A stretch of 38,654 nucleotides of DNA. Origin: a virus. Location: IMG/VR virus record IMGVR_UViG_3300048443_000082, positions 1-38,654 of that record. One strand, 5' to 3'. The notes beneath the pieces were generated by a model, which was given only the letters and a program-made list of their open reading frames with translations, was not told the DNA's origin and made no database searches. Made by a program: the position numbers and the translations under genes. Below, piece by piece: positions 9,005 through 25,449 of this stretch (the first letter of the stretch is position 1; each line of letters starts with the position of its first letter).

Positions 9005-9032
9005 TTTTTACACCAGTGGTGTAAGAGATCAA
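9005..9032 (-). promoter_or_regulatory. Promoter of the XRE-membrane protein operon with embedded operator
   Basis: Minus strand: -35 TTGATC (9027-9032), 16-bp spacer, -10 TAAAAA (9005-9010). A perfect 17-bp palindrome TTACACCAGTGGTGTAA (9008-9024) fills the spacer and fits the ACAC-N5-GTGT operator family found near the repressor, rep and parA. Confidence 0.5.
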
Positions 9033-9057
9033 TAAAAATACGATTCAGTTATAAAAG

Positions 9058-9084
9058 GGTATACGCATTGTTCTATCGCATACC
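9058..9084. promoter_or_regulatory. Imperfect dyad in the divergent intergenic region
   Basis: GGTATACGC and CGCATACC are arranged as near inverted repeats around 10 bases. Together with the LexA-like box these are the only organised elements I see in the 324-base gap between 8972 and 9295. Confidence 0.3.
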
Positions 9085-9244
9085 TATTAAGCGGCGCAAA
9101 TCAGGGGGATACGACCGTTTGGACGTTCCGCCCGCCGCCGCGCTCTGGCTAAATAGCGGGGGTGTTCAGGGGGGCTGAACCCGAGGCAAAAAACATTTAA
9201 TAAAACGCTGGCAATTAGCAAATCAATCATTAAGATTATTTTCA

Positions 9245-9260
9245 CTGTGGATATATACAG
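9245..9260. promoter_or_regulatory. LexA (SOS) box
   Basis: CTGTGGATATATACAG matches the gammaproteobacterial LexA consensus CTGT-N8-ACAG with an AT-rich centre. It lies 36 bases upstream of the 61-aa gene, next to a -35-like TTTTCA at 9239-9244, where bound LexA would block transcription. DNA damage should then switch this gene on. Confidence 0.65.
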
Positions 9261-9295
9261 TTAATTAGATTGGTTTTTTTGGGGAGTAAATAAAT

Positions 9296-9481
9296 TTGAC
9301 CGACAGCAGCATGATCATACATGATAATCCTGAAGACGGGATCGACAGCATGATAGAAGGATGTGAGCTTTTATTGTCTATCGAAGGCCCGGCGGCGCTA
9401 GATGGCGGCCTGCTATTGCTTTTGCGTGTTATGCGCGAGCAAGGCGTAAGCATTCGTAACACCCTGGCGGCGAAAAAGTAG
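9296..9481 (+). CDS. 61-aa acidic protein under a LexA box; candidate antirepressor
   Basis: TTG start with GGGGAG 9 bases upstream (an ATG at 9311 is an alternative). The protein is acidic at its N-terminus (MTDSS..DNPEDGIDSMIEG) and amphipathic or hydrophobic in the middle (GGLLLLLRVMREQGVSI); no domain is recognised. It is the first gene behind the LexA box and is divergent from the XRE regulator. Because the phage's CI cannot self-cleave, a small SOS-induced protein that inactivates CI is expected somewhere, and this gene has the right size, control and place. Phage 186 Tum and VP882 Qtip are functional analogies, not detected homologues. Confidence 0.55.
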   Translation: MTDSSMIIHDNPEDGIDSMIEGCELLLSIEGPAALDGGLLLLLRVMREQGVSIRNTLAAKK

Positions 9482-9503
9482 AGCGAAAAAAACAAGAAAA
9501 GTT

Positions 9504-9532
9504 TTGAGGTTATTACACGTTTAGTGTTAAAT
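9504..9532 (+). promoter_or_regulatory. rep promoter with CI-type operator in its spacer
   Basis: -35 TTGAGG (9504-9509), 17-bp spacer, -10 TTAAAT (9527-9532). The operator ACACGTTTAGTGT (9515-9527) lies in the spacer. It faces the rep gene across a leader of about 290 bases. Confidence 0.55.
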
Positions 9533-9545
9533 TAGAATCACTAAG

Positions 9546-9562
9546 ACGGCAACCGCCGTTTT
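9546..9562 (+). terminator. Short hairpin in the rep leader (possible attenuator)
   Basis: ACGGC / GCCGT stem with a 4-nt loop, followed by TTTT, just downstream of the rep promoter. It is too short for a confident full terminator. Confidence 0.35.
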
Positions 9563-9572
9563 GAAGGAACAA

Positions 9573-9597
9573 TAATACCAGGCAAGTAATACCAGGC
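9573..9597 (+). repeat. Direct repeat TAATACCAGGC (two copies; third at 14743)
   Basis: TAATACCAGGC occurs at 9573-9583 and 9587-9597, spaced 14 bases, and again at 14743-14753 beside the terminator of the parA-side operon. It could be a protein-binding or recombination site; nothing decides between these. Confidence 0.4.
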
Positions 9598-9604
9598 GTC
9601 AGAA

Positions 9605-9731
9605 AGAAAAAAACCCCAAGGTGACAGCCTTGAGGTTCTTTAAATCGGAAATTGAAAAGCAAATCTTAATTTACTAATAATCCCCAGCAAAAGTGATTGT
9701 TAGTCTACATTAGCTTTATCCGGTTTCGCAA
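9605..9731 (-). ncRNA. Candidate countertranscript RNA in the rep leader
   Basis: On the minus strand a stem (AACCTCAAGG / CCTTGGGGTT, plus positions 9612-9637, one mismatch) is followed by a long T tract (A tract at 9605-9613 on plus), so a minus-strand terminator lies inside the rep leader with no minus-strand protein gene to serve. A minus-strand promoter-like pair TTGCGA (9726-9731) and TAGACT (9702-9707), spacer 18, would give an RNA of about 90 nt complementary to the leader. Antisense RNAs in this place control rep translation in many plasmids. Not tested. Confidence 0.4.
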
Positions 9732-9828
9732 GGGTTTTGCCTAAAAAATCGGATTACAATATGACTAATAATTTTTTGCCTGGCACAATGCCGGGTTACG
9801 CGCCCCATACACTAACCGGGGGTGTGCT

Positions 9829-10566
9829 TTGATTACTCGCATCCCGGCCCACAAACGCGGCCTGCAGGACAAAATCTTTGTCCATGAGTCTGCCACCCGT
9901 GAATTTACCCCGACAGCGGGGCTTATCTTTGGTTTCCTGGCGTTTTCTATCTGCAAGCATGGTAAGGCCACGCATTCTAAATCGACCCTGGCCCGGCGCA
10001 TTCACTGCGAACGGCGCACGGTTCAGCGTAACATCAAAAAGTTGGTGGATGCGGGCTGGCTGCAAGAGCAGGAAGGCAGCACCCCCAGTAAGAATGTTTT
10101 CATCTTTGGCGAGCAGTGCCCCGAGCAAGTGATCCGCTCCTACCGGGCCATTATCCAGCGAAAAGGCAAGCAACGCGACGACGGCTTTTTAATTGGCGTT
10201 GAGATTGCCGGATATGACCAGATAGACAAAGACGACATCAACCGCAAAAAAGCAGCACAGTGGCGCACCCTGGCGTATGTCAAAGCGTTGCTGGCCTACC
10301 GTAGCGCCTCCCATGCTTTACGTAATAATAAGCAAGCCCGTGCCAAGTACAAAAACCTGACCCACTTAGCCAATCATTTAAACGTGTGCCTGAAAACGGC
10401 CGCCCGTTACCTGCGCATCTTAAAAAGCGCGGGCCAGCTTAAAGGTGTGGTGTACGATAGGGGCCTGTGTATCGACCCTGACGGGGCTTTGTTTAACCAG
10501 GTGCTGGCTATCTATAACAGACTGCAAAAGCTGCAGTATGTAGAGCAGTACGACCCGGTTTATTAA
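9829..10566 (+). CDS. Putative replication initiator with two winged-helix domains
   Basis: A 245-aa protein from a TTG start preceded by GGGGGTG. Residues ~25-90 form an HTH_36-type winged helix (KSTLARRIHCERRTVQRNIKKLVDAGWL). Residues ~165-215 form a second HTH (THLANHLNVCLKTAARYLRILKSAGQL). Two related DNA-binding domains and an adjacent downstream origin with iteron-like repeats and a DnaA box are typical of iteron plasmid initiators, though I cannot assign a specific Rep family. The long regulated leader also fits rep control. It could instead be a phage replication regulator. Confidence 0.6.
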   Translation: MITRIPAHKRGLQDKIFVHESATREFTPTAGLIFGFLAFSICKHGKATHSKSTLARRIHCERRTVQRNIKKLVDAGWLQEQEGSTPSKNVFIFGEQCPEQVIRSYRAIIQRKGKQRDDGFLIGVEIAGYDQIDKDDINRKKAAQWRTLAYVKALLAYRSASHALRNNKQARAKYKNLTHLANHLNVCLKTAARYLRILKSAGQLKGVVYDRGLCIDPDGALFNQVLAIYNRLQKLQYVEQYDPVY

Positions 10567-10726
10567 CCTACCTTCCACTTTCATTTTATTACTGGGCATG
10601 ACCCAGACTTTGGCGTGCCTAAAATTCGTAAAGCACTGTTTTAAGTGGTAAAATAGCAAAATTCGGCCCGCTTTCCCCTCTAGTTTTCCACCCATCTTTC
10701 TATATAAAACGCATTTTTCACCATCC

Positions 10727-10736
10727 TTGTGGATAA
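10727..10736 (-). promoter_or_regulatory. DnaA box
   Basis: TTGTGGATAA; the minus strand reads TTATCCACAA, which contains the consensus DnaA 9-mer TTATCCACA without mismatch. Confidence 0.7.
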
Positions 10737-10769
10737 ACTCCGGCCCCTCTTAGTAAAGATGAGAATTTA

Positions 10770-10831
10770 TGACGCACCCCACCCAATATATTGACGCACC
10801 TTTACCCTATCAGTGAGATATTTTGACGCAC
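10770..10831 (+). repeat. Iteron-like direct repeats TGACGCAC(C)
   Basis: TGACGCACC at 10770-10778 and 10792-10800 (22 bases apart, about two helical turns) and TGACGCAC at 10824-10831 (32 bases further, about three turns). Each is preceded by an AT-rich TTAT, TATT or TTTT stretch. Spacing by whole turns puts them on one face of the helix, as for Rep-binding iterons. Confidence 0.65.
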
Positions 10832-10878
10832 ATAAAGAGTCTTAGCAGAAAAGAGTAAATAATATATAGGTGTACCAC

Positions 10879-10982
10879 GGCCTGCGGCCATAAATGCCTT
10901 GCCCCTTATGACGGCCCTAAAGGGCCTGGGGCAAGAACAATGAAAAGAGGCGTCGCCAAGGGCCGCCTAAGCGGCCTGCGAC
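10879..10982 (+). other. Cluster of three strong stem-loops
   Basis: Hairpin 1: GGCC/GGCC at 10879-10889. Hairpin 2: CTTGCCCC (10898-10905) with GGGGCAAG (10928-10935) around an inner GGCCC/GGGCC. Hairpin 3: GTCGC and GGCCGC (10952-10966) with GCGGCC and GCGAC (10971-10982). With the terminator at 11167 they suggest a structured RNA next to the origin: a primer, a regulatory leader or an antisense-type RNA. Confidence 0.5.
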
Positions 10983-11162
10983 CAATCCGCGTAACCTAAC
11001 CTTACCCAATATGCATAAACGCCATAGAAACAAGCCACGTTCCTTTAAGAGCGGTTTAGCAGGGCGCGGATGAGCAACTTTCGTACCTGGTACACCATAT
11101 CGCCTTTGAGCGTATCAAATTCTATGACATCGCAGGTTTATCATGCGCTTACTCGCGCATAA
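10940..11162 (+). other. Three consecutive very short ORFs in the structured transcript
   Basis: 10940-10999 (19 aa, begins MKRGVAKGRL), 11011-11073 (20 aa, very basic, begins MHKRHRNKPRSF) and 11070-11162 (30 aa, begins MSNFRTWYTISPL). The last two overlap by ATGA and end just before the terminator. They may be leader peptides whose translation sets RNA folding. Shine-Dalgarno sites are poor, so expression is doubtful. Confidence 0.3.
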
Positions 11163-11166
11163 CTGT

Positions 11167-11186
11167 GGGCCTTCGGCCCGTTTTTT
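11167..11186 (+). terminator. Strong terminator after the structured region
   Basis: GGGCC-TTC-GGCCC followed by GTTTTTTATTTTTT. A further stem ATGCGC/GCGCAT lies just before it at 11143-11160. It ends a plus-strand transcript that has no long coding gene. Confidence 0.8.
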
Positions 11187-11237
11187 ATTTTTTAAAAGCA
11201 CCGGCTACAATGCCGGTACGATATAACGAGAACTTAC

Positions 11238-11351
11238 ATGGCATGTTTTAACCAGGGCAATGTTAGCCAGGAAGGGATAAAGGCCCTTACCACTAACACC
11301 GGTTATGTTAACTGGCAGCGCCTGGCCAGGGGCCGGTATGTCGCGCTTTAA
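11238..11351 (+). CDS. Small ORF overlapping the Rmf-like gene (37 aa)
   Basis: ATG to TAA, beginning MACFNQGNVSQEGIKALTTN. It overlaps the next gene's start by 14 bases, which would permit coupled translation. The Shine-Dalgarno (ACGAG) is weak and no family is recognised. Confidence 0.3.
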   Translation: MACFNQGNVSQEGIKALTTNTGYVNWQRLARGRYVAL

Positions 11352-11583
11352 TCAGTCCGCCCCCTATCGCAAAGGCTACGCCGCCGCCGAGCAGGGCCGC
11401 AGCCTGGATGCTTGCCGGTTCCGTGTGACGGCCAGGCGGATAGAATGGGTCCGGGGATATCACCAGGCAAAAGCGGATATGGACTTGACCCTGGCCCGGC
11501 ACCGAATAGAACGCCCGCCCGATGATCTGGCCCGCCAGGTCATAGCCCTGGATAAATTACGTAAAGTGATTACCGGTAATTAA
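11338..11583 (+). CDS. Ribosome modulation factor-like small protein
   Basis: An 81-aa protein. Residues 7-50 follow the Rmf family pattern (basic start, GY.A...GRS...C.........W..G...A..D): here APYRKGYAAAEQGRSLDACRF then RRIEWVRGYHQAKAD. Rmf dimerises 70S ribosomes in stationary phase; the related CrpP family has also been linked to other activities. The C-terminal 30 residues are extra. A phage copy could act on host ribosomes or RNA; function here is inferred from the pattern only. Confidence 0.55.
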   Translation: MSRFNQSAPYRKGYAAAEQGRSLDACRFRVTARRIEWVRGYHQAKADMDLTLARHRIERPPDDLARQVIALDKLRKVITGN

Positions 11584-11585
11584 AT

Positions 11586-11608
11586 ATTTATTTCATTATT
11601 TCTTTATC
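11586..11608. repeat. 23-bp AT-rich repeat, copy 1
   Basis: Identical over 23 bases to 16703-16725. It contains TTATTTCTTTAT, the complement of the dispersed 12-mer ATAAAGAAATAA. It lies just upstream of the promoter at 11615. Confidence 0.7.
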
Positions 11609-11614
11609 TAAGGG

Positions 11615-11643
11615 TTGACGGGTAGGCTCAATGAGCCTATTAT
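11615..11643 (+). promoter_or_regulatory. Promoter with 17-bp palindromic operator, copy 1
   Basis: -35 TTGACG (11615-11620), exact 17-bp spacer, -10 TATTAT (11638-11643). The perfect palindrome TAGGCTCAATGAGCCTA (11623-11639) sits between the boxes. An identical palindrome and -10 with the same geometry are at 13280-13308. Confidence 0.75.
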
Positions 11644-11694
11644 CATCATCAACGGCCGGGCACACCGCCAGGGCCATAAACCGGAAGCTATCCT

Positions 11695-12096
11695 ATGTAT
11701 ACCACTGTTAGAAAAAACGCCCACAAAAAAATCGCCGCGCTACTGAATGACGCAAAAGCCATTATCCTTACTACGTCGAAATCCCGCGTGGATGACAGTT
11801 ACGACAGCAGCCACCGTTATGCTGACGCCCAGGAGGTTATGGCCTGGTTAAGCGATGACTATAATTACCCTGACGCCAAACTGTATATAGATGACAAAGG
11901 CACCTTTCATGTGGGCGGCCCGTATTCTTTTTGTGATCAGTTCAAAGCGGTTATGACAGATGACGAACTGGCCGAGCATCAAACCTGGTACAACTTGCCG
12001 CCCCTGGGTAATGCCCAGGAGCCTGCAGCCCCGGCCGAACCATTACCGGCCAATGTGGTTAGCCTATGTGATTATCGCAATCAGAAAGCCAGCTAA
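11695..12096 (+). CDS. Hypothetical protein (133 aa)
   Basis: Not recognised. Basic N-terminus (MYTTVRKNAHKKIAALL), a middle with many Asp and Tyr (YADAQEVMAWLSDDYNYPDAKLY), a Pro/Ala linker and a C-terminal NVVSLCDYRN motif. Short VVSL.DYR tails of this kind occur at the ends of some phage proteins. It is the only gene between the palindromic promoter and a strong terminator, so it forms a single-gene unit. Confidence 0.6.
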   Translation: MYTTVRKNAHKKIAALLNDAKAIILTTSKSRVDDSYDSSHRYADAQEVMAWLSDDYNYPDAKLYIDDKGTFHVGGPYSFCDQFKAVMTDDELAEHQTWYNLPPLGNAQEPAAPAEPLPANVVSLCDYRNQKAS

Positions 12097-12114
12097 CCCG
12101 CCACCCTAAACCGT

Positions 12115-12141
12115 AGCCCGCCAGAGTGCGGGCTTTTTTTT
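12115..12141 (+). terminator. Terminator after the 133-aa gene
   Basis: AGCCCGC / GCGGGCT stem with a 6-nt loop and eight T. Almost the same hairpin recurs at 33066-33089. Confidence 0.9.
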
Positions 12142-12172
12142 GCCTGGAACTAAAATAAAGATTGTTAATTAA

Positions 12173-12204
12173 TTAATTAATTAGTAAATTAACTAATTAA
12201 TTAA
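12173..12204. promoter_or_regulatory. AT-only inverted repeat upstream of the KfrA-like gene
   Basis: TTAATTAATTAGT (12173-12185) and ACTAATTAATTAA (12192-12204) form a perfect 13-bp inverted repeat around AAATTA, ending 18 bases before the ATG. KfrA proteins repress their own promoters through AT-rich repeats, so this is the likely operator. Confidence 0.55.
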
Positions 12205-12222
12205 CTAATGAAAGGGTAAGTA

Positions 12223-13251
12223 ATGGAACAGCCAGCAAAAGTAGGTCGCAAAGGTATTGACGAAAGCCTGTATAGCGAACAAATCACAAAATGGTTAAAC
12301 GACGGGTTAAGCCTGGATGATATCAGCGCCACATCATTACAAAAGGCGGTGGGCGGTCAATATAAAAAAGCCGTTTCGGCCCTGGACCGCTTCAAAGAAG
12401 CCTACGAAGCCAAAGCCCTGGCCGATGTCCCGCCCATCCCCCAGGCGGTGACCGAGGAATTAACCGCGTATGCGGCCAAGCTGTGGCGGGAAGTGAACCA
12501 GGCGACCCACGATAAAATCGCAGAAGTTCAAGCCGCCGCCCAGGCAGAGGTGGACGCCGCGACCGCTCGCCATGCTGAAAGCCTGAATATGATTGAGTCT
12601 TTAGAAACTGACCTGGAAAAAGCCGAAGAAAACAACGCGGATCTGGTCCAGAGTATGAAGGCAACAGAAAGCCGTTTAGTGGCCAAGTCCGAAAGCGCGG
12701 CGGCCCTGCAGTCAGATAAACACCACCTGGCCCAGCAGCTAGATAGCTTGCGTAATGAGTTGGAGCAGGCGCGCACGGAAAACAAGGCCATTGAAACCGC
12801 CCGTCAGTCATTGTCTGAACAACTGGGTATCGAGCGCGCCAGTACGCAATCCTTAACCGAGCAAGTCAAAGAAGCCCGGCAACGTATTGAATCCTTAACC
12901 GGTGACCTGGCGCAGTGTCGCCAGGATAGTGAGGCCACAAAAGCCCGACTGGATCAGGAAGCGGCAAACAGTCGCGAACTGGCCGAGCGCCTGCAGGCGG
13001 CACAAAGTGAATTAGCGCAGGAACGGGCCGACCACCGCCGCGCGAAATCGGATTACACCACTTGCCTGGCGGCCGCGTCTAAAAATGCCGAACAGGTGAC
13101 ATCATTAACAGAGCAATGCGCGACGCTTAAAGCGGATATGGGCAGCCTGGCCGCAACGAATGAGCAATACAAAGAGCGCTATCAGGCAGCGGAGAAAACC
13201 GCCGCCGGGCTGCAAAAAGACTTATTAGCCCTGGCCAAAAAACAAAAATAA
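12223..13251 (+). CDS. KfrA-like DNA-binding coiled-coil protein
   Basis: A 342-aa protein. Residues ~8-75 match the KfrA N-terminal DNA-binding domain (GRKGIDESLYSEQITKWLNDG, then SLQKAVGGQYKKAVSALDRF). Residues ~85-335 are continuous heptad-rich coiled coil, rich in Ala, Glu, Gln and Arg. KfrA is a plasmid protein known from IncP plasmids that forms filament-like assemblies and aids stable inheritance. Its presence supports extrachromosomal maintenance. GGGTAAG lies upstream of the ATG. Start chosen to include the full DNA-binding domain. Confidence 0.82.
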   Translation: MEQPAKVGRKGIDESLYSEQITKWLNDGLSLDDISATSLQKAVGGQYKKAVSALDRFKEAYEAKALADVPPIPQAVTEELTAYAAKLWREVNQATHDKIAEVQAAAQAEVDAATARHAESLNMIESLETDLEKAEENNADLVQSMKATESRLVAKSESAAALQSDKHHLAQQLDSLRNELEQARTENKAIETARQSLSEQLGIERASTQSLTEQVKEARQRIESLTGDLAQCRQDSEATKARLDQEAANSRELAERLQAAQSELAQERADHRRAKSDYTTCLAAASKNAEQVTSLTEQCATLKADMGSLAATNEQYKERYQAAEKTAAGLQKDLLALAKKQK

Positions 13252-13254
13252 AAA

Positions 13255-13271
13255 TAGGCACAAAAAGCCTA
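13255..13271. promoter_or_regulatory. Degenerate copy of the 17-bp operator
   Basis: TAGGCACAAAAAGCCTA keeps the TAGGC...GCCTA ends and the 17-bp length of the palindrome at 13288-13304. Its centre is 33 bases upstream, three helical turns, as for a second site bound cooperatively. Confidence 0.45.
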
Positions 13272-13279
13272 ATTAATGC

Positions 13280-13308
13280 TTGCTTAATAGGCTCAATGAG
13301 CCTATTAT
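13280..13308 (+). promoter_or_regulatory. Promoter with 17-bp palindromic operator, copy 2
   Basis: -35 TTGCTT (13280-13285), 17-bp spacer, -10 TATTAT (13303-13308), with the palindrome TAGGCTCAATGAGCCTA at 13288-13304 identical to the copy at 11623. It drives the small-gene operon that starts at 13378. The leader contains a CCGGAAGC shared with the other leader and a CCCCTGGAGGGG hairpin. Confidence 0.75.
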
Positions 13309-13377
13309 ATATTTGTGGTCGGCACCGGAAGCCCGCCACCCCTGGAGGGGCAGAGTCGCCGCCACGGAGATTCCAGG

Positions 13378-13674
13378 ATGGAATTAACGCTCTTTAACAT
13401 TGCGACAGTAAAAACGAACTTTCCCGAAGCCGATTTCTGGCTGGTACGGAAAGGAAGTTTTAAAGAGGTTGGCAGGCCAACCAAAGAATACCACCCCGAG
13501 CGGATAGGTATTCAGGTTAGCCAGCCGCAAATAGCCCTTTCGGATTATTTGTATTACGTCTTAATGGCCCTGCACGGAGTTGGTTACTTTGAGCGCAGAG
13601 CCAAGGGAACATTAAGCCTTCAACATATTACTGTCAAAGATGTTGAGCAAATTAAATTGGAGGTGGGGCGCTAG
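13378..13674 (+). CDS. Small protein resembling part of a type I specificity domain
   Basis: A 98-aa protein from ATG 13378, with GGAG 8 bases upstream; a GTG at 13315 would include leader structure and is less likely. The pattern DFWLVRKGS...VG.PT.EY......QIALSDYLYYVLMALH..GYF...AKGT.S.QHITVKDVEQIKL recalls the end of a target-recognition domain of type I HsdS proteins. No methyltransferase or nuclease partner is in the window. It could be a DNA-binding regulator or an anti-restriction mimic. The resemblance is by eye and weak. Confidence 0.45.
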   Translation: MELTLFNIATVKTNFPEADFWLVRKGSFKEVGRPTKEYHPERIGIQVSQPQIALSDYLYYVLMALHGVGYFERRAKGTLSLQHITVKDVEQIKLEVGR

Positions 13675-15957: not shown

Positions 15958-16605
15958 TTATTTATCTGTAATTGCGCCCAGGCGATCTACAATGGACTGG
16001 ACGTACACCCCGGCTTTTTCTCTAACTGACTTGTGCGCCGCTTCACAAATAGATTTCCCCTGGTTGTGGGCATCCGCATAACTTTGCTTTTCTTCGACGG
16101 AGCCATCCAGGATATAAAAACCCGTTTTCCCCAGGTAATCGTGGGCGGCATCAAATGCGGCCTTGCTGTTACTGGCCCGACACAAACCAAACGCGATTTT
16201 GTCCATGGCCACGCCGTGTTTGTTAACCAGGTTATGGGCCATTAATACGGCGGGGGTTAAATCATCCAGGGTTAACCCGGTGGGGATAATAAACAGATCG
16301 GATGCCTGGGCAATTTCGACCGTTTTCTGGCTGGCTTTTGCGCCGCCATCTAAAATAAGTAAATCAGTGTGAGGAACGGCTTTTAATGCCTGGTCTACGG
16401 TGCCGAACGGCTCCACCGCTACCACGGGGGTAACGCCATTGGTTAAGCGCAATTGTTGCCATTTCACACAAGTTAATTGCTCTAAATCCATATCACCGAT
16501 TTTTACATCCCAACCGGCGCGCGCGTATTCTGTGGCCAGCGCCCGGCATGTGGTAGATTTGCCGACACCGCCTTTTTGCTGGCCAACGCCAATGATATAA
16601 CCCAT
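15958..16605 (-). CDS. parA: ParA-family partition ATPase (type Ib)
   Basis: A 215-aa protein. It has the deviant Walker A KGGVGKST at residues 11-18 with the signature Lys11, a DMD Walker A' segment at 38-40, and DLLILDGG (Walker B region) at 81-88. Small size without an N-terminal HTH puts it with type Ib ParA/ParF, which pair with RHH proteins, and one is adjacent. It positions plasmid copies before division. Its promoter carries a CI-type operator. Strong evidence that the prophage is maintained as a plasmid. Confidence 0.88.
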   Translation of the reverse strand: MGYIIGVGQQKGGVGKSTTCRALATEYARAGWDVKIGDMDLEQLTCVKWQQLRLTNGVTPVVAVEPFGTVDQALKAVPHTDLLILDGGAKASQKTVEIAQASDLFIIPTGLTLDDLTPAVLMAHNLVNKHGVAMDKIAFGLCRASNSKAAFDAAHDYLGKTGFYILDGSVEEKQSYADAHNQGKSICEAAHKSVREKAGVYVQSIVDRLGAITDK

Positions 16606-16640: not shown

Positions 16641-16669
16641 ATTGTATTAACACTTTTAGTGGAAAACAA
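16641..16669 (-). promoter_or_regulatory. parA promoter with CI-type operator in the spacer
   Basis: Minus strand: -35 TTGTTT (16664-16669), 17-bp spacer, -10 TACAAT (16641-16646). The operator ACACTTTTAGTGG (16650-16662) fills the spacer. Confidence 0.65.
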
Positions 16670-16730: not shown

Positions 16731-17123
16731 TTAAGCGTAGTTGCGGCCGCCTGCGCGCTGGCTTTTTACCAGGCGAGTGGTTTGGGGTCGGTGATTGGTG
16801 CGGTTGGGGCGTCGTAAGCGCATGAAGTCATCCCCGCCCGATTGAATGCAGGAAAGGACGCACAAAAACAAACAAAGTAAACGCGGAGCCAGGACGCCGA
16901 GCAAAAACGCCCGGCTGATCGCATGGGTTTTGTTTTTGGCGTTCAGCTTCTGATTTATCCGGGTTTCGACAAAGCGTATCTGGTCGCGGTGAATCCCGGC
17001 CGCCGTGGCAATATCCCCGGCGGTTTGTCCGTCTGCCAGCCCTACCAGTACCGTTAGTTCCTGGGTGTTTAACTGGTGCCCTGGGTGGGCGATAACATCT
17101 TTTCCCTTGATGTCTAATTGCAT
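16731..17123 (-). CDS. LuxR/GerE-type HTH protein with hydrophobic segment (130 aa)
   Basis: Residues ~18-75 fit a GerE-type HTH (LNTQELTVLVGLADGQTAGDIATAAGIHRDQIRFVETRINQKL pattern, starting with an L..qE..vl...a.G.t..eIA). A hydrophobic stretch (~78-95, Leu/Cys-rich) follows, and then a basic tail rich in Arg and Asn. No autoinducer domain is present. A small DNA-binding protein, possibly membrane-tethered, in the immunity operon. Co-directional with the 90-aa gene, 1 base apart. Confidence 0.6.
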   Translation of the reverse strand: MQLDIKGKDVIAHPGHQLNTQELTVLVGLADGQTAGDIATAAGIHRDQIRFVETRINQKLNAKNKTHAISRAFLLGVLAPRLLCLFLCVLSCIQSGGDDFMRLRRPNRTNHRPQTTRLVKSQRAGGRNYA

Positions 17124-17124: not shown

Positions 17125-17397
17125 TTACTGGCCCTGGTCGTTTAATTCGGCTATCAAAAAGGATAGCTGGCCCAGGTGGCCTTTTATCTGTGTGGCCAGG
17201 TTGGCCAGGCTGTGTAAATCTTCCGGGTCGATATCGCCGTCAGTTATCGCCTTTTCAGCAATAGCCTGCAGCCCCACGGCCTGGGCTTTTATCATGCTTA
17301 CATTGTCATACAGCATCGTTTGACGAGATTCGGGGACCACAATTAACTGTTGTTGGGTGGCGATTTCGACAATATGAGAAAGTTGGGTATTACACAT
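17125..17397 (-). CDS. Hypothetical protein in the immunity region (90 aa)
   Basis: Not recognised. Helical, with ESRQTMLYDNVSMIKAQAVGLQAIAEKA then an acidic DGDIDPEDLHSL segment and ATQIKGHLGQLSFLIAELND. First gene of a minus-strand pair with the LuxR-type gene. Its upstream region carries three CI-type operators, so it should be controlled by the repressor. Similar short helical proteins with an E..I..AL layout occur beside phage repressors, but no function is assigned. Confidence 0.55.
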   Translation of the reverse strand: MCNTQLSHIVEIATQQQLIVVPESRQTMLYDNVSMIKAQAVGLQAIAEKAITDGDIDPEDLHSLANLATQIKGHLGQLSFLIAELNDQGQ

Positions 17398-17426
17398 AAT
17401 AGGGTAGGCCTTTATTAATATCTATT

Positions 17427-17479
17427 ACACTATAAGTGGAAACTACCACTAATCGTGTAATATTTACAACTATTAGTGT
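17427..17479. promoter_or_regulatory. Three CI-type operators upstream of the 90-aa gene
   Basis: ACACTATAAGTGG (17427-17439), CCACTAATCGTGT (17446-17458) and the half-site CAACTATTAGTGT (17467-17479). Spacings are 19 and 21 bases, close to two turns, as in lambda-like operator triplets. Confidence 0.7.
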
Positions 17480-17535
17480 AAAAAAAACCGACAAAAAAAC
17501 CGCTTTCGCGGCTTTAATGGGGTGAATCGGTTGGC

Positions 17536-18174
17536 TTACAGGCTCCGGCTGACCCTGATAACCCGCCCGATAATAATAATATCGTCTAGGCTGACTTTGG
17601 TATCTGGCTGAATATCCTTGTTATTGGCCTGCAGTGTAAACGTACTGTCTGGCTCTGGCCGTATTCTGCGTAACCAGATGCTACCGCGCACCATAATGGC
17701 AAAAATATTGGTATACAGTGGGGTGGTTTCCCCGCGATTAATCAAGACTTCATCGCCTTTTTCAATGTCGCCGGTCATTGCATCGTCCGGGGCGTAAATA
17801 TTCATCAGCACATTGTGATCAAGGCGGGCACGTTCCAGGTAATCTTTGCTTAGTGCGGTATCCAGGCACGGGTCCCGAACATCCACCAAACTGCCCCTAA
17901 CTTCGATGGTCATTTTGCCAGGGCAGATAAAGTCCTGGCCATTAAGTAATTTAAAATCACGGTCGGACCAGCCCACGATATATTCGGGCGTCACGCCAAA
18001 GACCCTGGCGGCGCTTTCCACTTCGGGATAGCGCGGGATTCTTATGCCCTGTTCCCAATTTCCATAGGTGGACGGGGTAACCCCGATTTGCTCCGCCGCT
18101 TCCCGGATTTTCAGTTCTTTTTCGTCGCGTAATTTTCTTAGGCGGCGCTTGATGATGTCCTTAGTGTTTCTCAT
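17536..18174 (-). CDS. CI-like repressor with degenerate S24 peptidase domain
   Basis: A 212-aa protein. N-terminal HTH at ~20-65 (LKIREAAEQIGVTPSTYGNWEQGIRIP). The C-terminal domain is LexA/S24-like: DDAMTGDIEKGDEVLINRG aligns with the family's 'SM..i..GD.v.v', and FAIMVRGSIWLRRI aligns with the 'Kr' motif. The catalytic Ser is Ala132 and the catalytic Lys is Arg169, so RecA-stimulated self-cleavage should not work. The domain probably only dimerises. It presumably keeps lysogeny by binding ACAC-N5-GTGT sites around it. Divergent from the Cro-like gene, as expected. Confidence 0.88.
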   Translation of the reverse strand: MRNTKDIIKRRLRKLRDEKELKIREAAEQIGVTPSTYGNWEQGIRIPRYPEVESAARVFGVTPEYIVGWSDRDFKLLNGQDFICPGKMTIEVRGSLVDVRDPCLDTALSKDYLERARLDHNVLMNIYAPDDAMTGDIEKGDEVLINRGETTPLYTNIFAIMVRGSIWLRRIRPEPDSTFTLQANNKDIQPDTKVSLDDIIIIGRVIRVSRSL

Positions 18175-18314: not shown

Positions 18315-18343
18315 TGATTACACTTTAAGTGGATGTTTATCAA
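18315..18343 (-). promoter_or_regulatory. Repressor promoter with operator
   Basis: Minus strand: -35 TTGATA (18338-18343), 17-bp spacer, -10 TAATCA (18315-18320). Operator ACACTTTAAGTGG (18320-18332) overlaps the spacer. It would transcribe the CI-like gene with a leader of about 135 bases. Confidence 0.55.
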
Positions 18344-18402
18344 TCTAAAACAACTTTAAAGTAAAAAAAATATACAAAAGACTATGTTTATACTTTCAAA
18401 TA

Positions 18403-18435
18403 ACACTAAAAGTGTTAAATTAACACTACAGGTGT
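18403..18435. promoter_or_regulatory. Two operators in front of the Cro-like gene
   Basis: ACACTAAAAGTGT (18403-18415, perfect) and ACACTACAGGTGT (18423-18435), 20 bases apart, 17 bases before the cro ATG. A TTAAAT at 18415-18420 may be the -10 of the rightward promoter; I could not settle a -35. Confidence 0.75.
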
Positions 18436-18451
18436 TTAAGTTTGGTTTTGT

Positions 18452-18664
18452 ATGGATTTTAAAGATTGGGTAAAGGGTGTGGGCGGCGTGAATAACGCAG
18501 CGCAAATATTAGGCGAAAAGCCGCGCACCGTGCGTTCCTGGTTCTACTCTGAAAAACCCCCCCGCTTTGAGGCGGCGGTTAAAATTGTATCGCGCACACC
18601 ACTGGATTTTAACGCCCTTTACAACCCCTTTATGACAATGAAAACAACAGGTAAGAGCGAATGA
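18452..18664 (+). CDS. Cro-like regulator
   Basis: A 70-aa protein with a compact HTH: WVKGVGGVNNAAQILGEKPRTVRSWFYSEKPPRFEAAVKIV. Size, divergent position opposite the CI-like gene and the operators between them make it the lytic partner of the switch. It heads the rightward early operon; the stop overlaps the next gene by 4 bases. Confidence 0.75.
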   Translation: MDFKDWVKGVGGVNNAAQILGEKPRTVRSWFYSEKPPRFEAAVKIVSRTPLDFNALYNPFMTMKTTGKSE

Positions 18665-20629: not shown

Positions 20630-20947
20630 ATGCCAATTCAGCCAGAAACAGTACGACGAGATAGCCGGGGATATTGGACCCACTCACAGCACCCACCGTG
20701 GGGGGAGTCGGTCACCGCCCTGGAGATTATGACCTGGTGCGAGCAAAACAACGTCACTCTGGCGTATTCCTGGTTTGAGCATGAAGCGCCCGCAATGGCC
20801 CAGCATAATTATTACGAACTGGGTCACGATACGTGCCTGGGCTGGGACCCGGAGCCGCCCACCAAAGATGCGTTTTGTTTGTCTATCCATGACACCGAAG
20901 ACGGCCCGGTGGCGGTGTATCTGGCCCCGATAAAGTCAGGTAATTAA
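20630..20947 (+). CDS. Conserved phage hypothetical protein (105 aa)
   Basis: Opens MPIQPETVRRDSRGYWTH and ends IHDTEDGPVAVYLAP, a pattern I associate with a widespread small phage/prophage protein (VRRD..GYWTHP ... DTEDGP). Function unknown. It follows the Acb2-like gene after a 46-base gap with its own AT-rich leader, and may belong to the same accessory set. Confidence 0.55.
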   Translation: MPIQPETVRRDSRGYWTHSQHPPWGESVTALEIMTWCEQNNVTLAYSWFEHEAPAMAQHNYYELGHDTCLGWDPEPPTKDAFCLSIHDTEDGPVAVYLAPIKSGN

Positions 20948-20951
20948 GTAA

Positions 20952-20963
20952 ATAAAGAAATAA
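20952..20963 (+). repeat. Dispersed 12-mer ATAAAGAAATAA
   Basis: One of at least five exact copies (16677, 16713 reversed, 11596 reversed, 22203), plus a near copy at 24672. Here it lies in the leader of the 78-aa gene. Confidence 0.55.
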
Positions 20964-20985
20964 GTAAATAAGGAAAATCGGAAAA

Positions 20986-21222
20986 ATGAGCAAGTTATCT
21001 CAATTAAATACCCATTTGTTTTCGCAGTTAGATCGTTTAAATAACCCGGAATTGTCCGGCGAAGCGCTAAAAGAAGAAACCGAGCGGGGCAAAACCATCG
21101 CGTCGATAAGCAAAGAAGTGATCAACAATGCCCGCCTGGCCTTTGATGTGGCCAAAGGCTACGACGAATTAAGCTTAAACGCGAAAAAGCACGTTGACGA
21201 TAACCTGTTAGAGCAAAAATAA
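20986..21222 (+). CDS. Small phage protein (78 aa)
   Basis: Helical, charged protein beginning MSKLSQLNTHLFSQLDRLNN and continuing 'EETERGKTIASISKEVINNARLAFD'. Similar short proteins are common in temperate phages of Enterobacteria, without known function. Ends 1 base before the HNH gene. Confidence 0.55.
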   Translation: MSKLSQLNTHLFSQLDRLNNPELSGEALKEETERGKTIASISKEVINNARLAFDVAKGYDELSLNAKKHVDDNLLEQK

Positions 21223-21223
21223 C

Positions 21224-22033
21224 ATGGCGTTTCGTTACACCGAGGCCATGAAAGCCTTTTTAAAAACGGGCTTCCTAACTCTGGATTATCAGCTTTTAAC
21301 CCAGGCATTTAACGCAGAATTTGGCCTGGATAAAACCCCCGGCCAGATTAACTCTGCGCTAAAAAACTATGGGTACCGCTCCGGGCCAGAAAAAGTTCGG
21401 CCGTGTCGGGCGACATATTCCAATGAACAATTAGCCTGGTTACGTGAGCATTACCCGCTAATGCCCGTATCCCAGCTAACCCCCGCGTTTAATGCCGCGT
21501 TTGCTACTGACAAAACCCCGGTGCAGATTTATGGCTGTGTAAAGCGCAACAAAATCAAATCGGGCCATCCGGGCCACTTTCAAAAAGGGAACCGGCCGTG
21601 GAATGCCGGGCTAAAAGGCTGGCAGGCCCCTGGTAAATCCCATGAAACCCGCTTTAAAAAAGGCGCAAGCCCTAAAAACCTTAACCCCATTGGCCATGAA
21701 TATGTGGGTAAGGATGATGGCTATGTGTATATCAAAACCGACCAGACCAACCCCTATACCGGCGCGCGTGGCTGGTACCGCCAAAAACAGCTAGTCACCT
21801 GGGAGCAGCACCAGGGGCCGGTCCCTAAAGGCCATTGTGTGTTGATTAAGGACGGCAATAAACGCAACTGCAGCGACATTAATAATTTAATGCTGGTCAC
21901 CCGTCGCCAGTTGGCCCAGTTAAACAAAACCGGTCTGATTGCCGCCCCGGCCGAACTGAAAGAAGCCGCCGTGGCCACCGTTGAATTAACCAGCCAGTTG
22001 CGCCGCATCGAGCGCCAACAAAAGCAGGACTAG
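21224..22033 (+). CDS. HNH endonuclease-like protein
   Basis: A 269-aa protein. The N-terminus has two repeated DNA-binding units (LTQAFNAEFGLDKTPGQINSALKN and LTPAFNAAFATDKTPVQIYGCVKR). A GN.PWN.G.KGW linker follows. Then comes an HNH_3-type core at ~150-230 (YRQKQLVTWEQHQGPVPKGHCVLIKDGNKRNCSDINNL pattern: W..H.G.vP.gh...Hkd.n..N..i.NL). The expected first His of HNH is present in EQHQGP; the last is replaced by Lys in IKDGN, so activity is uncertain. It may be a homing-type nuclease. Confidence 0.75.
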   Translation: MAFRYTEAMKAFLKTGFLTLDYQLLTQAFNAEFGLDKTPGQINSALKNYGYRSGPEKVRPCRATYSNEQLAWLREHYPLMPVSQLTPAFNAAFATDKTPVQIYGCVKRNKIKSGHPGHFQKGNRPWNAGLKGWQAPGKSHETRFKKGASPKNLNPIGHEYVGKDDGYVYIKTDQTNPYTGARGWYRQKQLVTWEQHQGPVPKGHCVLIKDGNKRNCSDINNLMLVTRRQLAQLNKTGLIAAPAELKEAAVATVELTSQLRRIERQQKQD

Positions 22034-22042
22034 CGTGTGCTG

Positions 22043-22267
22043 ATGTGCAAACACAATGTGCCCTGGTATGAATACGAACTGTGCCACGAGTGCGCCCAGG
22101 AAGAATTTGAAGACCGTCGCTTATTTGAAGCCCGGCGGGCCTGTTATCGCCCGGTTGGGGCTAAGCGCATCTACCAGAAAGATTGTGTATTACTGCGCAC
22201 CAATAAAGAAATAACTAATTCGTTACCGGCGGCCGTGTCGCCCCGGTCTTCTGATACGGAGCAGTAA
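22043..22267 (+). CDS. Small Cys/His protein (about 74-76 aa)
   Basis: ATG 22043 or GTG 22037 (two codons earlier). CKHN and CHEC near the N-terminus could bind zinc; the same CKH...C.EC start is present in the 14189 protein. The C-terminal half (TNKEITNSLPAAVSPRSSDTEQ) is low-complexity and carries the dispersed ATAAAGAAATAA 12-mer. It lies 7 bases before the integrase gene. Confidence 0.5.
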   Translation: MCKHNVPWYEYELCHECAQEEFEDRRLFEARRACYRPVGAKRIYQKDCVLLRTNKEITNSLPAAVSPRSSDTEQ

Positions 22268-22274
22268 CCCCAGC

Positions 22275-23534
22275 ATGAAAACCAAAACGGTTAAGTTGTC
22301 GGACAGTCAAATTAAACAGCACGGCCCGACACAGATTAAACAATTGATAGACGAGCGCACCGGCTTGCGCTTTCGCTATTTCACCAACCGGGCAAAAGGG
22401 GCCTTTCACTTACGCCATTACACCCAGGGTAAAGAGGTCTGGCGTAAGGTGGCGAACTGGCCCGACACCCCCGCCCATACCGTCATCGAGCGCCTTAATG
22501 ATGTGCGCATCAGGTTGTGTGCCGATATCCGCGCCGCGCGTTTGCAGGTCCAGGGCTGGCAGCAGGTGAGCGAGTTATTAACCTGGTATATGACCCGCGT
22601 TCAGCGCGCCCGTAACCTAAGTGAGCAACGCAAGGCCAGTGTAAAAAGCGCCATCTATGCCCAGTTACTGCCCCGCATCGGTCAGTTACCGGTGACCGCG
22701 TTAACCAAAGCCCAGTTAGATGATGAACTGATTTGGCCGCTGCAGGAAGAATATTGCCTGGCCTATGTGCAAAGCATTTATAAGGTACTCAAAGCCGCGT
22801 ACAAGCAAGCCTATAAGCTAGAGCGCATCGAGCAAAACCCGTTAGCCCATTGGGTCTTTTCTGATTTCATCGCCGCCCAGGTCAAGCCCAAACCCGGCGC
22901 GCTGCAACAAAAACACACCCCGGCATTAATGGCGCAGTTATCAGGCGAGTTAACCGCCCCGCGCATGTTATGTGTCTGGATGGCCTTACACGCCACACGG
23001 ATAGCCGAAACACGGTCCATGCGCTGGGCCTGGATAGATTGGGATAACCGGCGCTTTACTATCCCCGGCCAGTACACCAAAAACAAATTGCCCCATACGT
23101 TACCGCTGACCCCCTTAGCCGAACTGGTATTAAGGGTTTACAAGGTCAGTCAGCAGGCCATGAACAAAAGCCAGGTGTTTTTGTTTCCCGGCAATAACCG
23201 TAAAGCCATCAGTCACAGTAAAGCCAATGAGTGGGTGCAAAGTATCAGTAATAACGACTGGACCGCCCACGATTTACGCAAGCTGGCCCGCAGTATTTGG
23301 ACCAACCAGGGGACAGAACACTGGCTAGGGGAGCGCCTAATTAACCACGCCCAAAAGGGCCTGGATGCCGTCTATAACCAGGCACAAATCCAAGCGCGCA
23401 TGGAAAACACCTTGATCACCTATCACGGCCTTTTTTGTGCCCAGGATTTCTATGTCAGCGCACCGGGACAGTGCCGAGATCAAATAAAAACAACCCTAAG
23501 CGCCAAGCCACGCCAGATAAGGCCCACCGCTTAA
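22275..23534 (+). CDS. int: Tyrosine recombinase, P4-type integrase
   Basis: A 419-aa protein. An N-terminal arm-binding DUF4102-like part (~1-90), a SAM-like core-binding domain (~95-195) and a catalytic domain (~210-385). Visible catalytic residues: Arg242 (HATRIAE), Lys269 or 271, His332 and Arg335 (HDLR), His358 and Tyr367 (INHAQKGLDAVYN). The set is complete. Length and motifs fit P4-type integrases rather than the longer protelomerases of linear plasmid phages. It could integrate the phage or resolve plasmid dimers. Confidence 0.88.
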   Translation: MKTKTVKLSDSQIKQHGPTQIKQLIDERTGLRFRYFTNRAKGAFHLRHYTQGKEVWRKVANWPDTPAHTVIERLNDVRIRLCADIRAARLQVQGWQQVSELLTWYMTRVQRARNLSEQRKASVKSAIYAQLLPRIGQLPVTALTKAQLDDELIWPLQEEYCLAYVQSIYKVLKAAYKQAYKLERIEQNPLAHWVFSDFIAAQVKPKPGALQQKHTPALMAQLSGELTAPRMLCVWMALHATRIAETRSMRWAWIDWDNRRFTIPGQYTKNKLPHTLPLTPLAELVLRVYKVSQQAMNKSQVFLFPGNNRKAISHSKANEWVQSISNNDWTAHDLRKLARSIWTNQGTEHWLGERLINHAQKGLDAVYNQAQIQARMENTLITYHGLFCAQDFYVSAPGQCRDQIKTTLSAKPRQIRPTA

Positions 23535-23567
23535 AACCCATGATCCACCACAAAGGAGTAAACACAA

Positions 23568-23720
23568 ATGAAGCATGTGCATAAATCACTGACGAATCCC
23601 ACGCCCACACCGACTCGCCAGCAACAAGCCGATAGCGTGAAGCGTGGCGCAACGTTCAAAGGCCCACCGGGCGGGCGTGTCAGCTTGCTGGCCCTTGCCA
23701 TCCAACACGCGATGTCCTGA
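23568..23720 (+). CDS. Small basic protein after the integrase (50 aa)
   Basis: A perfect AAGGAG at 23553-23558 lies 9 bases before the ATG. Protein begins MKHVHKSLTNPTPTPTRQQQ and is basic with a short hydrophobic end (VSLLALAIQHAMS). It could be an excisionase-like or structural small protein; no motif decides. Confidence 0.5.
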   Translation: MKHVHKSLTNPTPTPTRQQQADSVKRGATFKGPPGGRVSLLALAIQHAMS

Positions 23721-23876
23721 CGAAAACCGCCGGGGACCCTGACGTTTTATTTCGTCACCACGGGCAGCAGGCTCGCGGGATTTGAGAATTTTTCGGATTC
23801 CCCATGGCTCCCCACCAGTCTAGGCAGGTACCTGACGAAATCCGCGTGTTTCGTGGCCTGGACGGCGGGGAATCCC
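23718..23876. repeat. Repeat-rich region next to int (candidate attP)
   Basis: TGACGAAA at 23718-23725 and 23833-23840 (both within CCTGACGAAA) and the reverse TTTCGTCA at 23750-23757. GGATTCCCC (23795-23803) and GGGGAATCC (23868-23876) are perfect inverted copies. A non-coding, repeat-dense stretch beside int is where P4-type phages carry attP arm sites. No tRNA-like core was seen. Confidence 0.4.
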
Positions 23877-23903
23877 CACCTTTTGATTGATTGAGGTAAA
23901 AAA

Positions 23904-24077
23904 ATGGACCTACGTTATTTAAACATTTCGCAAATGGCCGCCATGTTTGCGCTATCGCGGGACACGGTGCGCGCCCGGCTTCGCCGCGCCGGGGTGACGC
24001 CTGCCCGAACCACCGCCAAAGCCCCGCTATACGATATGGTGCAAGCTGGCCCGGCGCTGTTTGCCGCCGCCTTTTAA
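23904..24077 (+). CDS. Short HTH protein, paralogue of the terminase small subunit N-terminus
   Basis: A 57-aa protein beginning MDLRYLNISQMAAMFALSRDTVRARLRRAGVTP and ending YDMVQAGPALFAAAF. It matches the first ~65 residues of the 27042 protein (NISRLSEAFCLDRKTVRKRL ... VYALADVGPALF) in order and spacing. It is a free-standing DNA-binding domain that could compete for, or regulate at, the packaging site. GAGG lies upstream. Confidence 0.65.
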   Translation: MDLRYLNISQMAAMFALSRDTVRARLRRAGVTPARTTAKAPLYDMVQAGPALFAAAF

Positions 24078-24088
24078 GGAGTAACCCC

Positions 24089-24328
24089 ATGGAACAGTTA
24101 ATGGATTGTGTGAAAAAGCGCGCCTATCGCCAGGCGCTATCCGTGGCCCTGGCCGGAGCCTATCGGCAAAGCAAAGCGTTAGTGAATTTGTTGTGTTTGG
24201 CCTACCTGGCAGGCTTTGGTTTTTACTTTGGAGCTACCGCCGCCCTGGCGTTTGACCAGGCCGTGTTTGATGTATCCAACCTGGTACGCGTGATCCATAT
24301 CAGCGGGGGCCATGATGCCAACCAATGA
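24089..24328 (+). CDS. Small membrane protein (79 aa)
   Basis: Hydrophobic centre ALVNLLCLAYLAGFGFYFGATAALAF gives one or two membrane spans after a basic N-terminus. AAGGAG 6 bases before the ATG. Overlaps the next gene by 17 bases. Not recognised. Confidence 0.55.
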   Translation: MEQLMDCVKKRAYRQALSVALAGAYRQSKALVNLLCLAYLAGFGFYFGATAALAFDQAVFDVSNLVRVIHISGGHDANQ

Positions 24329-24659
24329 CAAACGCGAAGCGGCGCGCCTGCGAAAGCAAAAAAGCCGTGCCCGGCGCAAACAGTTTGATATGAAAGTGAT
24401 AGAGGTGCCGTTATCCGCTACCCAGCGCAAAACCCTGCAGCACACCTGTACGGTGCGCGGCGGTATCACCGGGCCGTACACCCATGGCGAATACATCGCG
24501 GCGCTGATTGAGGCGGACGCGAAACGCCTGGCCGATGAACTGGCCGCCTTAGCGCCGTGTGATAAATGCAAATCCCCGTTGCCCGAAGGGTGCGGCGGGT
24601 TATTAAAAGGCCAGACAGAATGCTTTCACCATACCCGTGCCCGCAGCCTGATGGTGTGA
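24312..24659 (+). CDS. Hypothetical protein with C-terminal Cys/His motif (115 aa)
   Basis: Very basic N-terminus (KREAARLRKQKSRARRKQF), a middle like a ribbon-helix-helix end (MKVIEVPLSATQRKTLQ ... HGEYIAALIEADAKR) and a C-terminal CDKC...C..C.H cluster that could bind zinc. Starts at ATG 24312 or 24315. The TGA stop is embedded in the 16-bp palindrome that follows. DNA or RNA binding is likely; role unknown. Confidence 0.5.
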   Translation: MMPTNDKREAARLRKQKSRARRKQFDMKVIEVPLSATQRKTLQHTCTVRGGITGPYTHGEYIAALIEADAKRLADELAALAPCDKCKSPLPEGCGGLLKGQTECFHHTRARSLMV

Positions 24660-24669
24660 CCGGTCACAC
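24654..24669. promoter_or_regulatory. 16-bp perfect palindrome, copy 1
   Basis: GTGTGACCGGTCACAC, containing TGTGA-N4-TCACA. It sits over a stop codon upstream of the methyltransferase gene. No T tract follows, so it is not a standard terminator. The same 16 bases flank the other side of the gene. Confidence 0.7.
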
Positions 24670-24713
24670 TATTAAAGAAATAACGAAATAAATAATTAAG
24701 TAAGGGTAAGCCA

Positions 24714-25313
24714 ATGTCACACCAACACGTTAACCAGTCCAGCTACGGGGTGGAGTTTTACACCCTGGCCGATATTATCGAACCGGCCCGCCAGGTCTTA
24801 GGGGCCATTGATTTAGATCCGGCCAGCAGCGAAATCGCCAATCAAACGGTACGCGCGGCGCGCATCTACACCGAAGCCGACGACGGGCTGGCCCAGCCCT
24901 GGGCCGGGCGCGTGTGGATGAATCACCCGTGGGGGGCAAAGGAAAATGCGTGTGCGAAAAACTGCAAAAAGAAACGCTGTGAAAAGCGCGGCGGGCATTT
25001 AACCAAAGCCTTTGCAGGCAATGCCGCCTGGGTAGACAAATTACACCAAAGCTATGTTAGCGGTCAGGTCAGCGCGGCGCTGTGTATCACGTACGCCAGT
25101 ACGTCCGAAGCCTGGTATAAAACCTTAAAGGCGCATTACCCGGCGTGTTACTTGGACGGGCGCACCGGCTTTCGACACCCGGATGGCACCGTGGCGGACC
25201 AAAATACCAAAGGCTGTGTGGTGCATTACCTGGGGCCGGAGGTGGCCCGGTTTAACCAGGCGTTTGCGCCCCTGGGCGATGTGTTGGTGCCCTATCGGCG
25301 CGCGGTGGCCTAG
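24714..25313 (+). CDS. DNA N6-adenine methyltransferase, phage Dam family
   Basis: A 199-aa protein of the phage DNA N-6-adenine-methyltransferase family. It has the opening 'YGVEFYTLADIIEPARQVLG' with IDLDPASSE, and the catalytic motif at ~74 reads NHPWG where most methylases have (D/N)PP(Y/W). A Cys-rich insert (CAKNCKKKRC) may bind metal. C-terminal DGRTGFRHPDG and GCVVHYLG segments are family-typical. It may protect phage DNA from host restriction. Flanked on both sides by identical palindromes. Confidence 0.82.
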   Translation: MSHQHVNQSSYGVEFYTLADIIEPARQVLGAIDLDPASSEIANQTVRAARIYTEADDGLAQPWAGRVWMNHPWGAKENACAKNCKKKRCEKRGGHLTKAFAGNAAWVDKLHQSYVSGQVSAALCITYASTSEAWYKTLKAHYPACYLDGRTGFRHPDGTVADQNTKGCVVHYLGPEVARFNQAFAPLGDVLVPYRRAVA

Positions 25314-25328
25314 TGTGACCGGTCACAC
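25313..25328. promoter_or_regulatory. 16-bp perfect palindrome, copy 2
   Basis: GTGTGACCGGTCACAC again, beginning on the last base of the methyltransferase stop codon. Identical to 24654-24669. Confidence 0.7.
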
Positions 25329-25418
25329 GGGATAATCTAACCGGCGGCCCGGTCCGATTTTTAAAAAGTGATCCAGTCTTGCAGGCCGCGCAGTATAAGG
25401 CGCTACGATTTATTTTTA

Positions 25419-25449
25419 ACACTAAAAGTGAGCCTTTTACACAAAGTGT
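25419..25449. promoter_or_regulatory. CI-type operators in the late control region
   Basis: ACACTAAAAGTGA (25419-25431) fits the operator family; ACACAAAGTGT (25439-25449) is a palindrome with a shorter centre. A TATACT at 25473-25478 may be a -10. In the 316-base gap 25329-25644 I see only these, the terminator at 25595 and no gene; it is the likely late control region for lysis and virion genes. Confidence 0.55.

Follow-up and report, generated by a model that had tools for sequence, protein, structure and literature searches.

How does a phage that lives as a plasmid keep its copy number in step with its dormancy, as phage-plasmids must? The question is raised by IMG/VR virus record IMGVR_UViG_3300048443_000082, analysed here over its full 38,654 bp (the window). 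The terminase and head region of this record is lambda-like and its tail genes are P2-like, and it also encodes a replication initiator (rep), a kfrA-like protein, parA/parB, a CI-like immunity repressor, cro and a tyrosine recombinase. The original prediction for this DNA was that a dispersed ACAC-N5-GTGT operator family ties lysogeny, replication, partition and an induction module to one repressor. Our analysis points to a narrower arrangement: the best explanation of the evidence as a whole, and one we consider likely, is that CI operators couple lysogeny, rep and late transcription in a circular phage-plasmid. The window has no end repeat and no host sequence, and several of its relatives were deposited as circular records; we infer that the element is itself a circular phage-plasmid.

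An operator family on the promoters of the window

A 17-bp palindrome, TTACACTNNNAGTGTAA, occurs 10-11 times in the window, and every copy is intergenic and lies on a promoter. The promoters are those of cI, cro, an operon for a small protein (p90) and a LuxR-like protein, rep, parA, an Xre regulator gene and the late genes, where the sites form a tandem pair. The predicted core, ACAC-N5-GTGT, is exact at five places (9010, 9515, 18403, 18423 and 25439), against 0.29 expected and a maximum of two across 100 dinucleotide shuffles. The other predicted sites are variants in one half (GTGG at 16650, 17427 and 18320; CCAC at 17446; GTGA at 25419), and the complete operator, TWACACTNNNAGTGTWA, is 17 bp long and thus extends beyond the core. 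All nine predicted sites are present at their positions, but the list had overlooked a third p90 site and a second late site with an exact core.

Three of the sites lie at cI and cro: TTACACTTTAAGTGGAT at the cI promoter (18318-18334) and, 20 bp apart, TAACACTAAAAGTGTTA (18401-18417) and TAACACTACAGGTGTTT (18421-18437) at the promoter of the cro-like gene (18452-18664, plus strand; phrog_35/409). When a matrix was trained on these three sites alone, the remaining operators were the top-scoring sites of the window, with those at parA, p90, rep and Xre next in rank. Scoring of promoter zones against shuffles gave p values of 0.0005 for Xre and parA (the floor of the test for both), 0.0005 for p90 and 0.001 for rep, while the late zone reached 0.0145 as a single site and 0.0005 as a pair 20 bp apart; control zones 5' of kfrA, dam and integrase in the window were not significant. 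Promoter-zone scoring was used instead of whole-genome de novo motif scans, in which GC-rich and poly-A seeds dominated some genomes.

The operators had also been predicted to fill the spacer between the -35 and -10 boxes in four cases. Read by eye, the boxes do enclose the sites at rep (TTGAGG-17-TTAAAT), parA (TTGTTT-17-TACAAT), cI (TTGATA-17/18) and cro (TTTCAA-16-TAAATT), although the rep and cro promoters score below the 9/12 threshold of an automatic promoter scan.

Conservation and co-variation in related phage-plasmids

The comparison set comprised 24 related phage-plasmid records, 19 of them IMG/VR records taken whole and five named: Aeromonas veronii pWP8-S18-ESBL-11_1, Vibrio parahaemolyticus pVPGX2, Vibrio sp. 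HDW18 p_unnamed2, Aliivibrio phage H905 and Vibrio phage PE002A. TerL and the tail genes are common to the window and to the group of the five named elements, Vibrio/Aeromonas phage-plasmids with a P2-like tail and a lambda-like head, and most relatives share with the window a syntenic module in which cro diverges from CI, followed by p90, the LuxR-like gene and, further on, parA and parB. The phage collection searched held no near-identical relative of the window. Membership of the linear, telomere-bearing phage-plasmids was rejected, as protelomerase (PF16684) was found in 0 of 13 records by a search that was positive in one control genome.

In a held-out test, the operator of each genome was defined by one palindrome 15-61 bp 5' of cro and then sought elsewhere. 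At rep it was recovered at p < 0.05 in 9 of 16 (Fisher 2e-8), at p90 in 6 of 17 (Fisher 1e-7) and before the holin gene in 6 of 14 (Fisher 7e-6), and the control zones at luxR, int, dam, D, TerL and parB together yielded 0 of 118 at p < 0.01. Across 32 loci holding parA and CI, the ACAC consensus recurred at cro -23, at cro -85 and about 335 bp 5' of luxR, which is the p90 promoter. In most ACAC-type genomes, 62-64 bp, or roughly six turns of the helix, separate the cro-proximal from the cI-proximal operator (for example in the cI-cro intergenic regions L085:32738-32820, L087:1663-1741 and L088:5599-5679).

The type of operator changes with the repressor. In ACAC-type genomes, where the CI recognition helix mostly reads R[YF][SG]NWE, sites of this type are found at cro, p90, rep and the late promoter. 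At cro and the late promoter, a second CI clade (recognition helix GRWQNWE) instead carries AACAAC-N5-GTTGTT, a type that matches 10-12 of 12 positions there, against 7-8 for the ACAC type. Since the late sites switch type with the CI clade, the distant sites follow immunity specificity. The prediction is borne out in so far as a single operator family links lysogeny with rep, the p90/LuxR-like operon and the late promoter, on the evidence of both conservation in relatives and co-variation with the repressor clade. The AT-rich composition of promoter regions could in principle have produced such palindromes by chance, but shuffling with local composition preserved, the held-out test and co-variation all rule that explanation out; it is already refuted at cro, cI, p90, rep and the late promoter, and we give it next to no probability. 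The sequence evidence is strong support for a single immunity repressor that governs both replication and late transcription.

Under the mechanism we propose, the palindromes would be operators of the CI-like repressor (17536-18174, minus strand; HTH_3 and S24 fold), bound as dimers at single sites or at pairs about 20 bp apart. CI sitting on the promoter cores would block cro, and with it lytic entry, as well as cI itself, the p90/LuxR-like operon, the late promoter and the promoter of the rep mRNA, so that a prophage would hold initiator synthesis down along with the lytic genes. Once the repressor is removed, cro, rep and the late promoter would be freed at the same time, and copy number would thereby be tied to the immunity state.

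Replication, partition and late promoters

The rep operator, TTACACGTTTAGTGTTA (9513-9529), lies between TTGAGG (9504-9509) and TTAAAT (9527-9532), 308 bp from the gene for a 245-aa winged-helix initiator (9829-10566, plus strand), and is conserved at rep in relatives. Given a repressor operator on the rep promoter, the repressor of dormancy would probably also set plasmid copy number. The intervening leader (9530-9828) contains a leftward terminator hairpin (9608-9641, minus strand), consistent with the end point of an antisense RNA for copy control, and an antisense-RNA-type leader of this kind would probably trim initiator synthesis further. The rep leaders of relatives likewise have a leftward terminator-like hairpin between operator and rep, with more stem-loops in most, and the arrangement of operator followed by hairpin leader resembles antisense-RNA-controlled replicons. 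In H905-type relatives, a leader loop with TTTGGCG is reminiscent of IncI/IncL/M antisense copy control. Three iteron-like TGACGCAC repeats (10770-10831, plus strand) and a DnaA-box-like site at 10728 make the region 3' of rep (10728-10831) a likely origin.

The initiators themselves vary. The window has an HTH_36 protein, PE002A a strong match to RepA_IncFII_LM, H905 a distant match and the A. veronii element a member of the phrog_20951 family. Profile comparison among these groups detected no relation, and the H905-type and PE002A-type initiators may be remote relatives of each other. No relatives of the window Rep were found in plasmids and viral contigs, so that its promoter has no direct ortholog for comparison. 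Judged from these sequences, operators persist at rep through exchange of the initiator gene.

Could the site at rep control something else? The promoter it overlaps might make another transcript, with rep driven from an operator-free promoter-like site at 9652-9681 (TTGAAA-18-AATAAT, scored 10/12 by the automatic scan), which falls between the operator and the gene; the 308-bp distance fits this idea. However, relatives with unrelated rep genes keep the operator 127-308 bp 5' of rep, mostly inside a rep-facing promoter read by eye (TTGTCT-18-TAAATT in A. veronii, TTGCAG-18-TAAAGT in the IMG/VR genome G003) and followed by a hairpin leader. We therefore regard rep-independent function of the site as unlikely.

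Partition is a different matter. The operator at parA (15958-16605, minus strand), TAACACTTTTAGTGGAA (16648-16664), sits within its minus-strand promoter and scores 22.0 bits, against 21.3-25.0 for the cI-cro sites on whose matrix it was scored. The site is nevertheless found in the window only: 0 of the 32 related loci with parA and CI have an operator of the ACAC consensus within 250 bp of parA, and the held-out test at parA reached p < 0.05 in 2 of 24, one of them the window and the other a weak case (Fisher 0.84). The operator TTACACCAGTGGTGTAA (9008-9024), 5' of the gene for a 100-aa Xre (HTH_3) regulator (8669-8971, minus strand), is also confined to the window, with no counterpart of the site at Xre in relatives. 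In relatives the shared site was recovered at rep, the p90 operon and the late promoter, and the sites at parA and Xre were absent; repressor control of partition finds no support as a general property. Both sites are convincing in the window and belong to that one genome, and control of partition would be lineage-specific at best, the same repressor having perhaps gained sites at parA and Xre in the lineage of the window.

The alternative is that two regulons overlap, with CI acting at cI, cro, p90, rep and the late sites, while 9008 and perhaps parA would belong to the Xre protein or to some other factor. The centre of the 9008 site differs (CCAGTGG), its position on the Xre promoter is expected for autoregulation, and relatives lack both the parA and the Xre sites, while the parA site scores like the cI-cro sites under their own matrix. 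This division is possible though doubtful, and it is compatible with CI coupling at all sites other than 9008 and parA.

At the late promoter, TAACACTAAAAGTGAGC (25417-25433) and the overlooked TTACACAAAGTGTGTTT (25437-25453) lie 20 bp apart. In all 12 aligned genomes, late operators and promoter precede a conserved leader that has a CGTGG core and ends in a strong terminator immediately 5' of the lysis genes; in the window this terminator (25593-25615, plus strand) comes just before the holin gene. The leader (25437-25621) looks like that of an antitermination-controlled late operon, and by analogy with lambda pR'-tR', late transcription may need both removal of the repressor and read-through of the terminator. 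An Rfam match at this leader was sub-threshold (27.8 vs 49.5 bits) and was taken as chance.

Three operators mark the p90 promoter: TTACACTATAAGTGGAA (17425-17441), which is conserved in the family, TACCACTAATCGTGTAA (17444-17460) and the previously unlisted TACAACTATTAGTGTAA (17465-17481). The operon encodes p90 (17125-17397, minus strand), a small conserved protein that most relatives also encode between CI and the LuxR-like gene, and the LuxR-like helix-turn-helix (HTH) protein (16731-17123, minus strand). The latter combines a hydrophobic stretch with a basic tail in its C-terminal half and is conserved in the family beside CI; a role as membrane link or late activator is possible. The induction module of the original prediction is not borne out, as an operon repressed by CI cannot itself start induction. 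A terminator-like hairpin after CI and its own operators precede the p90/LuxR-like operon, which makes it more likely an early lytic operon than an induction trigger. A small ORF behind a LexA box (9243-9481) is the better candidate.

Repressor release and relation to known systems

The catalytic positions of the CI-like protein carry Ser to Ala and Lys to Arg changes. The catalytic Lys is Arg in 24 of 24 CI proteins that cover the position, and the Ser is lost in many. Loss of the S24 Ser-Lys dyad makes direct RecA-stimulated self-cleavage unlikely, and a RecA-cleavable repressor of the lambda CI type was rejected for the window on these residues. Since CI lacks the dyad, its removal would most likely run through the LexA-controlled small ORF acting as an antirepressor. 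The LexA/SOS box CACTGTGGATATATACAGTT (9243-9262), which contains the only strict CTGTN8ACAG of the window (9245-9260), precedes this ORF (9296-9481, plus strand; 61 aa from TTG, 56 aa from an alternative ATG) and lies about 250 bp 5' of the rep operator. A near-consensus SOS box with a small ORF was present in 19 of 25 genomes, the window and 18 others, where the small ORFs had been filtered for 'NP'; in each record with an annotated rep, box and ORF occupy the corresponding position. Neither the p90 nor the small-ORF family had a convincing match in Pfam, PHROG or NCBIfam.

A precedent for such release exists in the Gifsy phages, where the LexA-controlled small antirepressors GfoA and GfhA free phages with a non-cleavable repressor (PMC3121763). 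The window resembles them in its non-cleavable repressor and in a small ORF under a LexA box outside the immunity region, and by analogy with GfoA the ORF is a candidate SOS-induced antirepressor. In VP882, phage 72 and phage 63, small proteins of TF-smORF modules encoded near repA/par genes inactivate cI (PMC10432266). Those phages differ in being linear and plasmid-like with telN, and those tested have an autoproteolytic cI; in the window, moreover, the p90/LuxR-like operon is itself under the repressor's operators.

The closest parallel for replication control comes from N15 and phiKO2, whose CB repressor binds operators between the repressor gene and cro and two more on the repA promoter (PMC4997575, PMC4488713). 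CB lowers repA transcription and copy number, and it is non-cleavable, without a Ser-Lys dyad (PMC4997575). Control of replication by an immunity repressor is therefore already known, and the novelty that the original prediction claimed beyond P1 was too strong. The window family is alike in that its putative immunity-repressor operators overlap the rep promoter and in that, comparing the proteins by their properties, its repressor also lacks the dyad. It differs in that N15 is linear with a protelomerase, which the window family lacks, and has 16-bp operators of another sequence between neighbouring genes, whereas the window operators are spread across 16 kb and are found at the late promoter and the p90/LuxR-like operon as well. 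In P1, one repressor, C1, acts at many operators around a plasmid-prophage genome, and those operators are asymmetric. The window shares with P1 a single repressor with dispersed operators in a plasmid prophage, but its operators are palindromic and lie on the plasmid rep promoter. What is new here is a family without protelomerase, with dispersed operators that include the late promoter and that persist at rep through initiator exchange.

Could Cro, rather than CI, be the main binder of the distant sites, shutting or tuning the rep, late and p90 promoters in lytic growth and not in the prophage? Cro is small, adjoins the same operators and has a recognition region that changes with the same clades, and in several genomes the site near cI does not have the same sequence as the site near cro. 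Yet the Cro proteins of phiKO2 and PY54 have one binding site each, near cI, and leave the repA operators free, whereas phiKO2 CB occupies all the operators (PMC4997575, PMC4488713), and there would be little sense in Cro closing late promoters in lytic growth. Cro as main binder is thus improbable.

Several observations weigh against coupling by CI. Co-variation of Cro with the same clades as CI means that sequence does not separate the two as binder. In the GRWQNWE clade, the site at rep is of the cI-adjacent operator type, TTCCGCANNNTGTGGTA, and two binding specificities are possible there. The held-out tests at rep and the late promoter fall short of significance in some genomes, automatic training failed in some (G003, G012), and counts overstate independence given close pairs (G014/H905, G005/PE002A, G001/G002). 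The small ORF of the window is only weakly like its counterparts and among the most divergent. Finally, loss of the repressor in a Tritonibacter (Roseobacter) phage-plasmid raised the replication and parAB genes only in line with copy number (PMC10090143), a warning that not all phage-plasmids are wired to their repressor in this way.

Coupling by CI operators remains the reading we favour. We advance only tentatively, at somewhat less than even confidence, its fullest form: one non-cleavable repressor as master switch over lysogeny, replication and the late promoter, its reach extended in this lineage to partition and a second regulator, with the operator acquired at unrelated rep modules and release by a LexA-controlled antirepressor encoded near rep. 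The predictions are testable in cultured relatives, the Aliivibrio fischeri H905 phage and Vibrio phage PE002A. If coupling holds, loss of the repressor would raise copy number at once, a superinfecting repressor could inhibit the resident replicon, and the late promoter would be silenced directly and not just through a cascade. A conserved operator on the rep promoters of unrelated replicons suggests that such coupling has been selected repeatedly and is not a peculiarity of N15.

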